The notes beneath the pieces are model-generated. The model searched no databases. It was not told where the DNA came from and was given only the letters and a program-made list of their open reading frames with translations. A stretch of 64,000 nt of DNA from Planctomycetota bacterium (lineage in GTDB: Bacteria > Planctomycetota > UBA8742 > UBA2392), in assembly GCA_019636195.1 (NCBI GenBank), contig JAHBYA010000005.1, positions 188,174 to 252,173 of the forward strand. The letters are read 5' to 3'. Position numbers and translations under genes: made by a program. The first letter of the stretch is position 1. Each line of letters begins with the position of its first letter. Of this stretch, positions 28,823-31,283 are shown in pieces.

Positions 28823-29698
28823 ATGGGCCCGGCCCTCAAAATCCTCGCGCCCGCCAAGGTCAACTGGTTCCTTGAGGTGCTGCACAAGCGCCCGGACGGC
28901 TTTCACGCCATCGAAACGGTGATGCAGGCGATCAGCCTGTTTGACGAGATCACGGTGCAGAACGCACCTGAACTGACCTTGGCGTGCAGCATCGACCTTG
29001 GGCCGGTCGAAAGCAACCTTGCGTTTCGCGCCGCGGAGCTGCTCAGGCAGCGTCACGCTCCTGGCCGCGGCGCCAGGATCACACTCACCAAGCGCATCCC
29101 TCACGGGGCGGGCCTTGGCGGCGGCAGCAGCGATGCCGCGGCGACAATGGTGGCGCTGAACCGGCTGTGGGGTATCGGGCTGTCGAGTACCCGGATGCAG
29201 GAGCTGGTGGCTGAGATCGGTAGCGACTGTGCTTTCTTTATTGAAGGCGGCACTTCACTTTGTACAGGCCGTGGCGAGATAGTTGAACCACTGCCCGATG
29301 TGCCGGCGGTCGATTTGGTGATTTTGTACCCCAGCACTGTGTGTCCGACGGGTCCCGTGTACGCTGATGCCAGCAGTCACTTGACTGGCAACCCCAAAAA
29401 GTGTTACTTATTTCATGTTTTGAAGAGGGATACGAATCGCACTGAACTGGCCCCGGCGATTTTCAATCGTTTGCAGGAGTCAGCGTTGCGGGTCTCATCC
29501 GGACTTAGGCAGGCTTGGTCGCAGACAGACCGCTTACCTGGCGTGCTGGCGCGATTTGTCAGCGGTTCCGGGTCTTCCATCGCGTTCCTGATGGCCGACC
29601 CGGAGTCGGCTTCAAGTCTGGCGACGTCCCTCAAAGAGATGGGCCTGGGGCAGGCCTTTGCAGTCGCCAGTTTGCCCCGGGGCGCAGTATGGGGATGA
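28823..29698 (+). CDS. ispE: 4-diphosphocytidyl-2-C-methyl-D-erythritol kinase IspE
   Basis: IspE phosphorylates CDP-ME in the MEP pathway for isoprenoids. The product is 291 residues with AAGGAG upstream. The GHMP-kinase features are present: catalytic Lys in APAKVNWFLEVLHKRPDGFH, the ATP-binding Gly-rich loop PHGAGLGGGSSDAAATMVAL, the catalytic Asp in IGSDCAFFIEGG, and motif 3 in VSGSGSSIAFLM. Its direct neighbour downstream is spoVG, and ispE and spoVG also lie close together in Bacillus, so the linkage may be old. Confidence 0.96.
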   Translation: MGPALKILAPAKVNWFLEVLHKRPDGFHAIETVMQAISLFDEITVQNAPELTLACSIDLGPVESNLAFRAAELLRQRHAPGRGARITLTKRIPHGAGLGGGSSDAAATMVALNRLWGIGLSSTRMQELVAEIGSDCAFFIEGGTSLCTGRGEIVEPLPDVPAVDLVILYPSTVCPTGPVYADASSHLTGNPKKCYLFHVLKRDTNRTELAPAIFNRLQESALRVSSGLRQAWSQTDRLPGVLARFVSGSGSSIAFLMADPESASSLATSLKEMGLGQAFAVASLPRGAVWG

Positions 29699-29702
29699 GG
29701 GG

Positions 29703-30122
29703 ATGCAAGACATCGAAGTCACGGAAGTCCGCGTCAAGCTGGCGTCGGAAGACGACGAAAAGTTGCTCGGGTATTGCAGCGTCACCCTGAACAACGCGTT
29801 CGTGATCAAGGACCTGAAAATCATCCAGGGCGACGGTTCCCCGTTCATCGCCATGCCGTCGCGCAAGATCACCGACAAGTGCAGCCGTTGCGGCTACAAG
29901 AACCACCTGCGCGCCAAGTTCTGCAACGAGTGCGGCAACAAGCTGCCCGTGAACCGCGCCGACACTGACGCCCGCGGCCGCGCCAAGCTGCACTTTGACC
30001 TGGTACACCCGATCCGCGGCGAAGTGCGCGAGTACGTGCATCGCAAGATTGTCGAAGCCTACGAAGCCGAAGTCGCCCGCGTGCGCGCCGGCGGCAAACC
30101 CACTGAAATGGACGAAGGTTAG
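29703..30122 (+). CDS. spoVG: SpoVG-family protein with embedded zinc ribbon
   Basis: SpoVG is a small nucleic-acid-binding regulator. The product is 139 residues from the ATG at 29703, four bases after the ispE stop, longer than the usual 85-100. The SpoVG core is visible in two parts: IEVTEVRVKLASEDDEKLLG with GSPFIAMPSRKITDK, and FDLVHPIRGEVREYVHRKIV. Between them, where SpoVG has a short loop, sits a Cys4 zinc ribbon (CSRCGYKNHLRAKFCNECG; C-x2-C-x11-C-x2-C). The ribbon could add nucleic-acid or protein binding. The TAG stop overlaps the stop of the convergent nuclease gene (TTAG). Confidence 0.88.
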   Translation: MQDIEVTEVRVKLASEDDEKLLGYCSVTLNNAFVIKDLKIIQGDGSPFIAMPSRKITDKCSRCGYKNHLRAKFCNECGNKLPVNRADTDARGRAKLHFDLVHPIRGEVREYVHRKIVEAYEAEVARVRAGGKPTEMDEG

Positions 30123-30742
30123 GCCGCGCCCCAGATGCCGCGCGCGCGGCGTTTGGCTTCGTCGCGCAGGGCCGCGAACTTCGCGGCATACTTCGTGTTG
30201 GGCTCAATCGTCATGGTGTCGGCCCAGCCCTGTTCAAGCATCAGCTCGTTCAGCATGCGGCCGTCGGGCAGATACACGTACGCCAGCGTGCGTTCATACT
30301 TGTCCTTGCGCTCTTTGTCGTACTCGAGCCGCACCTGCGGGTCGGCCTCCAGCAGCGTAAACAGGTACATGGTGGCCTTGAAGGCATGGCTGTCGGGCTC
30401 GACCTTGTCTTTGCCGAGCTCGGGGCAGTCGATCCCGATCAGGCGGACGCGCGCGCCGTCGGCCATTTCAAGCGTGTCGCCATCGATCACGCGCTTGACG
30501 CCCGTGTGGTTGCGCAGCTTCTTGTCCGGCGCCGGCAGGTACAGCTTGGGCCGCGCGATCGCGGTTGAGCTTTCGCCGCACGGCTGTGACTTCTCGCCAC
30601 TGCCGTAAATGCCGTCGCTGCGCAGGTGAAACGGCATGATGCCGCTTTGCCACAGCACCACGCCCACCAGCGCAACAATGACCAGCAGCACCAGCGCCGT
30701 TGCACCGGGGTTGAGCTTTCCACGTTGATTCGCGCGAGCCAT
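30119..30742 (-). CDS. Membrane-anchored thermonuclease (SNase) family protein
   Basis: The product is 207 residues from the ATG at 30742, chosen because a TATACT box lies 6 nt upstream (a GTG two codons further back is within that spacer). An N-terminal signal anchor (ATALVLLVIVALVGVVLW) puts the nuclease domain outside the cytoplasm. Staphylococcal-nuclease residues are present: Asp in VIDGDTLEMADG, Arg and Asp in VRLIGIDCPEL with the catalytic Glu, and the second Arg in YERTLAYVYLPDG. It should cleave DNA or RNA with calcium. It overlaps the spoVG stop and is divergent from the PAP2 gene across only 19 bases. Confidence 0.9.
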   Translation of the reverse strand: MARANQRGKLNPGATALVLLVIVALVGVVLWQSGIMPFHLRSDGIYGSGEKSQPCGESSTAIARPKLYLPAPDKKLRNHTGVKRVIDGDTLEMADGARVRLIGIDCPELGKDKVEPDSHAFKATMYLFTLLEADPQVRLEYDKERKDKYERTLAYVYLPDGRMLNELMLEQGWADTMTIEPNTKYAAKFAALRDEAKRRARGIWGAA

Positions 30743-30761
30743 CGCCACAGTATAGCGGCGA
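30743..30761. promoter_or_regulatory. 19-bp divergent promoter region with overlapping -10 boxes
   Basis: The two divergent ATG codons are separated by 19 bases. On the minus strand TATACT ends 6 nt before the nuclease ATG; on the plus strand TATAGC ends 5 nt before the PAP2 ATG. The two boxes share four bases. Neither gene has a Shine-Dalgarno sequence, so transcripts starting at or near the A of ATG are expected, with -35 elements inside the opposite coding region. Confidence 0.55.
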
Positions 30762-31283
30762 ATGCGACAATTGGACCAACGACTCAGCAGTTCCGTGCAC
30801 GGTTGGCGCCTTGGCGCGCTGGACTACGCGCTGGCTGTGCCCGGCATGCTGTTCGGCAGCTACGTCATGCCGCTGCTGATCGTTGCCCTGGGCGTGTGGC
30901 TGGGCTGGCGCTTCGGCGCTGTCGCCACCATGAGCGCGCTGACCACGCTGGCCATCACCAACCCGCTGAAACACTTGATCGGTCGCGCAAGGCCGGAGCC
31001 GCTGGAGGCGCCGCGGGCGCTGAAGCTGCGCAAGCTCGTGAACAACCCCGCCTTTCCCAGCGGCGACAGCGCGCAGGCCGGCACTGTTGTCGTGCTGCTG
31101 ATGCTGCTGGGCCCACTGGATTGGCCTGCCAGCGCGACGTTTCTGCCGTTGATCCCCCTGACGATGTTCAGCCGCGTCTATTTCGGCGCCCACTGGTGGG
31201 GCGACACAGCCGCCGGGGCGCTGATCGGCGCGGCGGTGGCATTTGCGTACGGCCACTGGTTTGCGGTGTTTGCGGCTGGGTAG
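30762..31283 (+). CDS. PAP2-family membrane phosphatase
   Basis: The product is 173 residues with four to five hydrophobic segments. Enzymes of this family hydrolyse lipid phosphates such as undecaprenyl pyrophosphate or phosphatidic acid at the membrane. Motif 1 (K-x6-R-P) is KHLIGRARP and motif 3 (S-R-x5-H-x3-D) is SRVYFGAHWWGD, with the nucleophile His. Motif 2, normally PSGH, reads PSGDSAQAG, so the proton-donor His is Asp. This may change activity or substrate. It is divergent from the nuclease gene. Confidence 0.88.
   Translation: MRQLDQRLSSSVHGWRLGALDYALAVPGMLFGSYVMPLLIVALGVWLGWRFGAVATMSALTTLAITNPLKHLIGRARPEPLEAPRALKLRKLVNNPAFPSGDSAQAGTVVVLLMLLGPLDWPASATFLPLIPLTMFSRVYFGAHWWGDTAAGALIGAAVAFAYGHWFAVFAAG

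Follow-up and report, generated by a model that had tools for sequence, protein, structure and literature searches.

A putative PafBC-like DNA-damage promoter in the 19-bp gap between divergent nuclease and PAP2 genes of a Planctomycetota bacterium

The 19 nucleotides that separate the start codons of a nuclease gene and a divergently oriented PAP2-family phosphatase gene probably harbor a PafBC-type DNA-damage promoter, which would drive a leaderless nuclease mRNA and compete with a weak promoter for the PAP2 gene. Promoter elements at the locus and their conservation, a promoter class, a regulator gene pair and a lack of matches to the LexA domain were all read directly from the window (the 64,000-nucleotide stretch of DNA analyzed here) and from related genomes. 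The element TGTCGC, which had been missed in an earlier prediction made from the window alone (hereafter, the original prediction), supplies a candidate activator site for one of the two directions.

The nuclease/PAP2 locus and its arrangement in the family

Contig C22 of a 3.9-Mb genome (G000) contains the window, and 16 genomes of the Planctomycetota family to which it belongs were searched. On the minus strand, positions 30119–30742 encode an SNase-like nuclease of 207 aa with a hydrophobic N-terminal stretch (PF00565, E = 1.2e-19), and on the plus strand, positions 30762–31283 encode a PAP2-family phosphatase of 173 aa (PF01569, E = 4.1e-19). As the NCBIfam matches that would identify the latter as LpxE or as an undecaprenyl-diphosphatase are far below cut-off, we claim no specific activity for this protein. 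A SpoVG-domain protein with a double zinc ribbon is encoded convergently with the nuclease gene (29658–30122, plus strand), and no Rfam families were detected in the window at gathering thresholds.

Direct reading of the letters confirmed the geometry given in the original prediction: a gap of 19 nt (30743–30761) lies between the nuclease ATG (30742–30740, minus strand) and the PAP2 ATG (30762–30764, plus strand); TATACT (30754–30749, minus strand) and TATAGC (30751–30756, plus strand), proposed as the -10 boxes of the two genes, end 6 and 5 nt before their respective ATGs and share the four bases TATA (30751–30754); and the 20 nt preceding either ATG contain no GGAGG-like Shine-Dalgarno site. 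In family alignments, conservation of the nuclease N-terminus begins at its ATG, and the PAP2 start methionine is aligned with ATG or GTG in nearly all members; in the window genome, a GTG is located two codons upstream of the nuclease ATG (30748).

PAP2 orthologs were found in all 16 family genomes, and nuclease orthologs of high similarity, with a conserved N-terminus, in 14 of them, G000 included (G003 yielded only a weak match and G012 none). The two genes are divergent neighbors less than 1 kb apart in 10 genomes, at a spacing of 19 nt in G000, G001 and G002, which represent one genus, and in G005, which represents another; of about 60–100 nt in G004, G007, G010 and G014; and of about 630–710 nt in G013 and G015. 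In G006, G008, G009 and G011, they are on different contigs or far apart.

Within a 0.8-Mb sample of G000, in which 567 genes were called with a simple codon model, only the nuclease/PAP2 pair among 94 adjacent divergent pairs combines a leaderless -10 with two candidate starts separated by about 19 nt, a count that is approximate and may miss cases because the codon-use start caller is poor and misplaces PAP2. The 19-nt divergent architecture is local and not a genome-wide design.

A leaderless nuclease promoter

TANNNT is present 6 or 7 nt before the nuclease start in 13 of the 14 family genomes that have the ortholog, as TATACT in 11 of them, TACACT in G007 and TACATT in G010; none was found in G011. 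Since this box is kept even in genomes without an adjacent PAP2 gene, it appears to be the nuclease's own promoter.

TANNNT is strongly enriched in the G000 sample with its first base at -12 (37 candidate ATGs) and at -13 (19), versus 2–9 at most nearby offsets, whereas the -11 register, to which the PAP2 box of the original prediction belongs, is not enriched (TANNNT, 4; TATA, 1 at -11 versus 9 at -12). The nuclease box is therefore far above chance, whereas the PAP2 box, in the position proposed for it, does not exceed chance. As a clear GGAGG signal is also present in this sample, leaderless and Shine-Dalgarno genes coexist in G000; 66 of the 567 called genes were assigned to the leaderless class, some of them by chance. 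With a -10 about 6 nt before its start codon and no Shine-Dalgarno site, the nuclease gene has the makeup of a leaderless gene, and that part of the proposal that both mRNAs are leaderless is supported for the predicted nuclease transcript. A scan with the sigma-70 consensus detected no promoter-like site around the locus, so that a plain -35/-10 model yielded no promoter for the nuclease or for PAP2.

A TGTCGC element upstream of the nuclease -10

Upstream of TATACT, at a distance of 9 bp, the nuclease promoter contains TGTCGC (30764–30769, minus strand), a -26-like element that on the plus strand corresponds to the G of the PAP2 ATG followed by CGA CA of codons 2 and 3. Of 14 family genomes, 9 have the exact combination TGTCGC-N9-TANNNT-N6/7-start before the nuclease, as compared with 3 of the 567 genes called in the G000 sample. 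The element deviates in G005 (CGTCGC, five of six letters) and in G006 (TGTCGT, at 10 bp), and it is absent before the nuclease in G009, G011 and G013.

We rejected the CGA in PAP2 codon 2 as a sign of promoter constraint: although CGA accounts for 4.3% of Arg codons overall, it accounts for 19 of 98 at codons 2–3 of called genes in the G000 sample, and a codon this common near G000 starts is no evidence of constraint. TGTCGC was likewise rejected as a -35 hexamer, the spacer of 10 from TTGTCG being too short.

A family-wide class of predicted promoters

In each of the 13 family genomes tested, TGTCGC-N9-TANNNT is more frequent than the same pattern reversed (45 versus 12 sites in G000, and 76 versus 8 in G014). 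The enrichment is specific to the spacing: in G000, 17 sites were counted at N9 and no more than 7 at any other spacing from 0 to 29, and N9 likewise ranks first among the spacings in the samples from G014 (9 sites) and G009 (5 sites). Fifteen of the 17 sites in the G000 sample are intergenic, the intergenic share of that sample being 16%. In an unbiased ranking of the 5-mers that precede 729 -10-like hexamers, TGTCG at -15 came first (14 occurrences versus 1.0 expected, uncorrected p = 7e-12). A search for the stricter form TTGTCGC-N9-TATNNT found 43 sites versus 4 in the six family genomes that it included, and 159 versus 136 controls, which is background, in 113 planctomycetes outside the family. 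On this sequence evidence, TGTCGC-N9-TANNNT is a predicted promoter class that spans the family.

The motif of PafBC-dependent (RecA-NDp) promoters in Mycobacterium tuberculosis has been given as TGTCGG-10xN-TA-3xN-T (PMC8151990), and earlier as tTGTCRgtg-8nt-TAnnnT (PMC5656591). The nuclease promoter has the TGTC-type -26 element and the TANNNT -10 of such promoters but not their 10-bp spacing. The mycobacterial 10-bp form, TTGTC-N12-TATNNT, shows no enrichment in G000 (4 sites versus 7 in the control), and in 11 other planctomycetes its excess over the control is small or absent (largest in G018, 24 versus 14, and G016, 13 versus 6). Because of the 9-bp spacer and this lack of enrichment of the 10-bp form, we call the class a PafBC-like variant and not a canonical member.

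Genes downstream of the promoter class

In G009, 33 of 48 sites were read, 29 of which have an ORF within 130 nt, and 20 of these 29 ORFs were scanned with Pfam. The scan identified RecA, UvrB, SSB, DNA polymerase III alpha and ThyX (genes recA, uvrB, ssb, dnaE and thyX), a helix-hairpin-helix protein, a radical-SAM enzyme, an SNF2 helicase, DNA methyltransferases including one of the MmeI type, and an IS605-type transposase; seven ORFs have no family. Among the G000 targets are DnaB, PriA, a WYL regulator, a radical-SAM enzyme similar to that of G009, several helicases, a resolvase, an aminotransferase, an ORF with a Cse1 domain that starts 127 nt downstream of its site, and further ORFs that have no family. 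Some targets we take, from their translations alone and without a family match, to be DciA-like, SprT-like, ClpX and DinB-like proteins. The element also precedes one recA copy in G000, G001, G003, G007, G009 and G010. Most family genomes have two full-length recA genes (C20:113912-114694 and C26:124464-125249 in G000), and the other G000 copy lacks the element.

As judged by inspection of this list, the class is rich in repair and replication genes, as a PafBC regulon is. Non-repair targets are also present (transposases, the aminotransferase and small proteins without a family), and among the 45 sites in G000, 11 + 3 of those read have no convincing ORF nearby, so the target list contains false sites too.

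Several sets of similar small proteins, which are without a Pfam family or were outside the Pfam scan, are encoded behind alike TGTCGC promoters in G009 (L213/L228, L215/L241/L242, L229/L238 and L230/L233); they are a candidate expanded family, without assigned function, within the putative damage regulon. Candidate phage-defense genes (encoding the Cse1 domain, PLD-helicases, and MmeI-type and other DNA methyltransferases) were also noted behind or near TGTCGC-N9-TANNNT, at C1:339161-339181, C1:304977 and C1:310270 in G000 and at L212 and L226 in G009.

A PafB/PafC-like regulator pair and no LexA-domain match

Two tandem WYL genes, on one strand and about 1 kb apart, are encoded in 15 of the 16 family genomes. 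The exception is G005, an 84% complete genome that keeps the 19-nt arrangement but has only CGTCGC at the nuclease. For the first WYL gene of G000, which retains the WYL core and an Arg-rich stretch, the best PDB matches are the PafB chains of 6sj9, 9fnd and 7p5x (about 1e-22), and for the second, the best match is PafC of 7p5x (1.9e-22); NCBIfam returned no match for the pair. A PafB/PafC-like pair is encoded, then, in the window genome itself. Furthermore, the promoter class lies directly upstream of the pafB-like gene in all seven genomes read, four of which were chosen with the site known and three (G001, G008 and G014) without.

The LexA DNA-binding domain (PF01726) was matched in none of 11 family genomes, versus six of six planctomycetes of other families. 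As judged by this domain, the usual SOS regulator appears to have been lost from the family, and the repressor that a LexA/SOS promoter presupposes was not found in this organism.

TGTCGC might instead be recognized by some other activator or by an alternative sigma factor, a reading to which we assign a low probability. The role of the PafB/PafC-like pair is one that we infer, and the spacer is 1 bp off the mycobacterial one; against these points stand the abundance of replication and repair genes among the targets and the position of the class before the pafB-like gene in every genome read. One identity considered for such a site, an OmpR/PhoB-type half-site (Pho box) at a similar place, was dropped since 31 aligned sites show no direct repeat 11 bp upstream.

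The PAP2 direction

TATAGC, the proposed PAP2 -10, lacks a T at position 6, is off the register of G000 leaderless genes and is, on the plus strand, the nuclease core GCTATACT in reverse reading. Nuclease promoters of other family genomes, read in the same way, contain TATAGC in G009, G013 and G015, where PAP2 is distant, TATAAC in G008 and TATACC in G006. The PAP2 box thus appears to be mostly the nuclease box read backwards.

These results bear on the original prediction as a whole, taken here as an unregulated symmetric promoter that has TATACT and TATAGC as its -10s and yields two mutually excluding leaderless mRNAs. Both boxes and the short gap do exist, and the 19-nt spacing is kept in four genomes of two genera; yet TATAGC is a poor -10 in an unused register that recurs backwards at nucleases without a close PAP2 gene, TGTCGC is left out of account, and the basal activity of bidirectional promoters in Escherichia coli is described as too low for polymerases to compete (PMC12825309), which leaves mutual exclusion, as stated, unsupported. 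We regard this reading as very improbable, the least probable of those considered here.

A different plus-strand box fits PAP2 better. Pseudo-symmetric bidirectional promoters are reported to have RNA starts separated by about 18, 10 or 23 bp (Warman, Grainger and colleagues; PMC12825309), 18 bp being the commonest distance between RNA starts in E. coli bidirectional promoters (PMC12825309). From this 18-bp class we derived cAGTAT (30748–30753, plus strand) as a candidate PAP2 -10; it is the exact mirror of the key A and T of TATACT, and from it the RNA would start about 2 nt before the ATG, with a 2-nt leader. The predicted distance between RNA starts is 18 bp for cAGTAT/TATACT and about 20–21 bp for TATAGC/TATACT; TATACT overlaps both plus-strand boxes, so that a -10 is shared by the two strands, as in pseudo-symmetric promoters, with either.

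A candidate -35, TTGATT (30725–30730, plus strand), is located 17 bp from cAGTAT. At this distance, TTGATT is also present in G001, G002 and G013, TTGACC in G005 and TTGACT in G014. A total of 1.6 Mb from three genomes contains 63 reversed TATACT sites, and at only two of these, the G000 locus and its G014 ortholog, are at least four of the six -35 positions matched at 17 bp. Since the hexamer lies within conserved nuclease codons (Asn-Gln in G000), protein constraint is an alternative cause. The PAP2 promoter, unproven as it is, is thus better represented by the candidate pair cAGTAT and TTGATT than by TATAGC, and while TATAGC gives little reason to consider the PAP2 mRNA leaderless, the RNA start predicted from cAGTAT may still make it "near-leaderless".

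If, instead, the nuclease promoter is the only one in the gap, PAP2 transcription would start within the nuclease gene, at a more distant upstream site, and TATA symmetry would have produced the reverse boxes as by-products. The occurrence of reverse TATAGC without PAP2 nearby is consistent with this, as is the location of PAP2 farther downstream of the same core in G004 and G014. The consensus scan, however, found no other promoter-like site upstream of PAP2; TTGAyy 17 bp from xAGTAT, which nuclease codons could explain, occurs at none of the 61 reversed TATACT sites other than the G000 locus and its G014 ortholog; and where PAP2 stands alone (G006 and G009), TATCCT or TATGCT is found 6 nt before its GTG start, which looks leaderless. 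We consider a nuclease promoter alone in the gap unlikely, though a serious alternative to overlapping promoters.

Discussion

In the model that we favor, a PafBC-type promoter that responds to DNA damage and is aimed at the nuclease would have its core in the gap, with TGTCGC as its -26 element and TATACT as its -10, and nuclease RNA would begin at the A of the ATG, making the mRNA leaderless. The lack of a good -35 would make this promoter weak in undamaged cells. Single-stranded DNA made by damage would cause the PafB/PafC-like pair to let the housekeeping polymerase use it, by sigma adaptation as in mycobacteria, where PafB is described as binding the -26 motif, PafC as holding domain 4 of sigma-A, and single-stranded DNA as activating the pair (PMC11804915). 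PAP2 would be transcribed in the opposite direction, probably from the weak overlapping TTGATT-N17-cAGTAT, with a leader of 0–2 nt. As the nuclease promoter overlies the PAP2 start and polymerase can occupy only one direction at a time, less PAP2 would be transcribed once polymerase is activated by damage, which amounts to a damage-biased switch and not to strict mutual exclusion; E. coli bidirectional promoters, in which the partner is reported to be repressed once one direction is activated, offer an analog for this decrease (PMC12825309). Inducibility, regulator binding, RNA start sites and competition are thus all predictions from sequence.

More tentatively, and with less than even confidence in the whole, we suggest that a PafBC-type activator, with a 9-bp spacer and control of its own operon, replaced the lost LexA in the damage response of this family, and that here, with the -26 element placed in the first codons of PAP2, damage raises nuclease and lowers PAP2 expression through polymerase competition on the 19-bp gap. 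If true, this would be another damage response that works by activation instead of LexA repression, with recA, uvrB, ssb and dnaE behind TGTCGC-N9-TANNNT. The change from a 10-bp to a 9-bp spacer would test the geometry of sigma adaptation, and the gap would be a compact system for asking whether activating one of two overlapping directions silences the other.

The nuclease gene resembles bacterial leaderless genes in having a -10 about 6 nt before its ATG and no Shine-Dalgarno site, and Planctomycetes have been named among the phyla with few Shine-Dalgarno genes (PMC5397173). Unlike the reference cases for leaderless genes, the starts at this locus are predicted ones, and G000 also has a clear Shine-Dalgarno class. 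With the pseudo-symmetric promoters of E. coli, the gap shares overlapping -10s on both strands and a predicted start distance of 18 bp, that of the commonest class. It differs from them in that the coding regions begin at, or about 2 nt from, the predicted starts, in that the nuclease direction has a damage-type -26 element, and in that divergent transcription is here predicted from sequence.

PafBC promoters have been described in Actinobacteria in the literature cited here. The main text of a 2019 survey of WYL proteins, which places PafBC-like architecture mainly in Actinobacteria, Firmicutes and Bacteroidetes, does not contain the word "Planctomycetes" (PMC6789036), and a literature search, mostly at title level, found no paper that joins PafB/PafC with Planctomycetes. 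The nuclease promoter and its class are like mycobacterial PafBC promoters in that a TGTC-type element closely precedes a TANNNT -10 and a good -35 is lacking, and unlike them in the spacer, which is 9 bp at the locus and family-wide versus 10 bp in mycobacteria. The system as a whole is similar in its repair targets, including recA, and in its tandem pafB/pafC-like genes, for which PafBC is the best match of solved structure; it differs in its phylum, Planctomycetota, and in the lack of a LexA-domain match. In mycobacteria, PafBC levels are reported to be unchanged under stress (PMC6789036), and unlike in mycobacteria, the pafB-like gene of this family itself carries the element.
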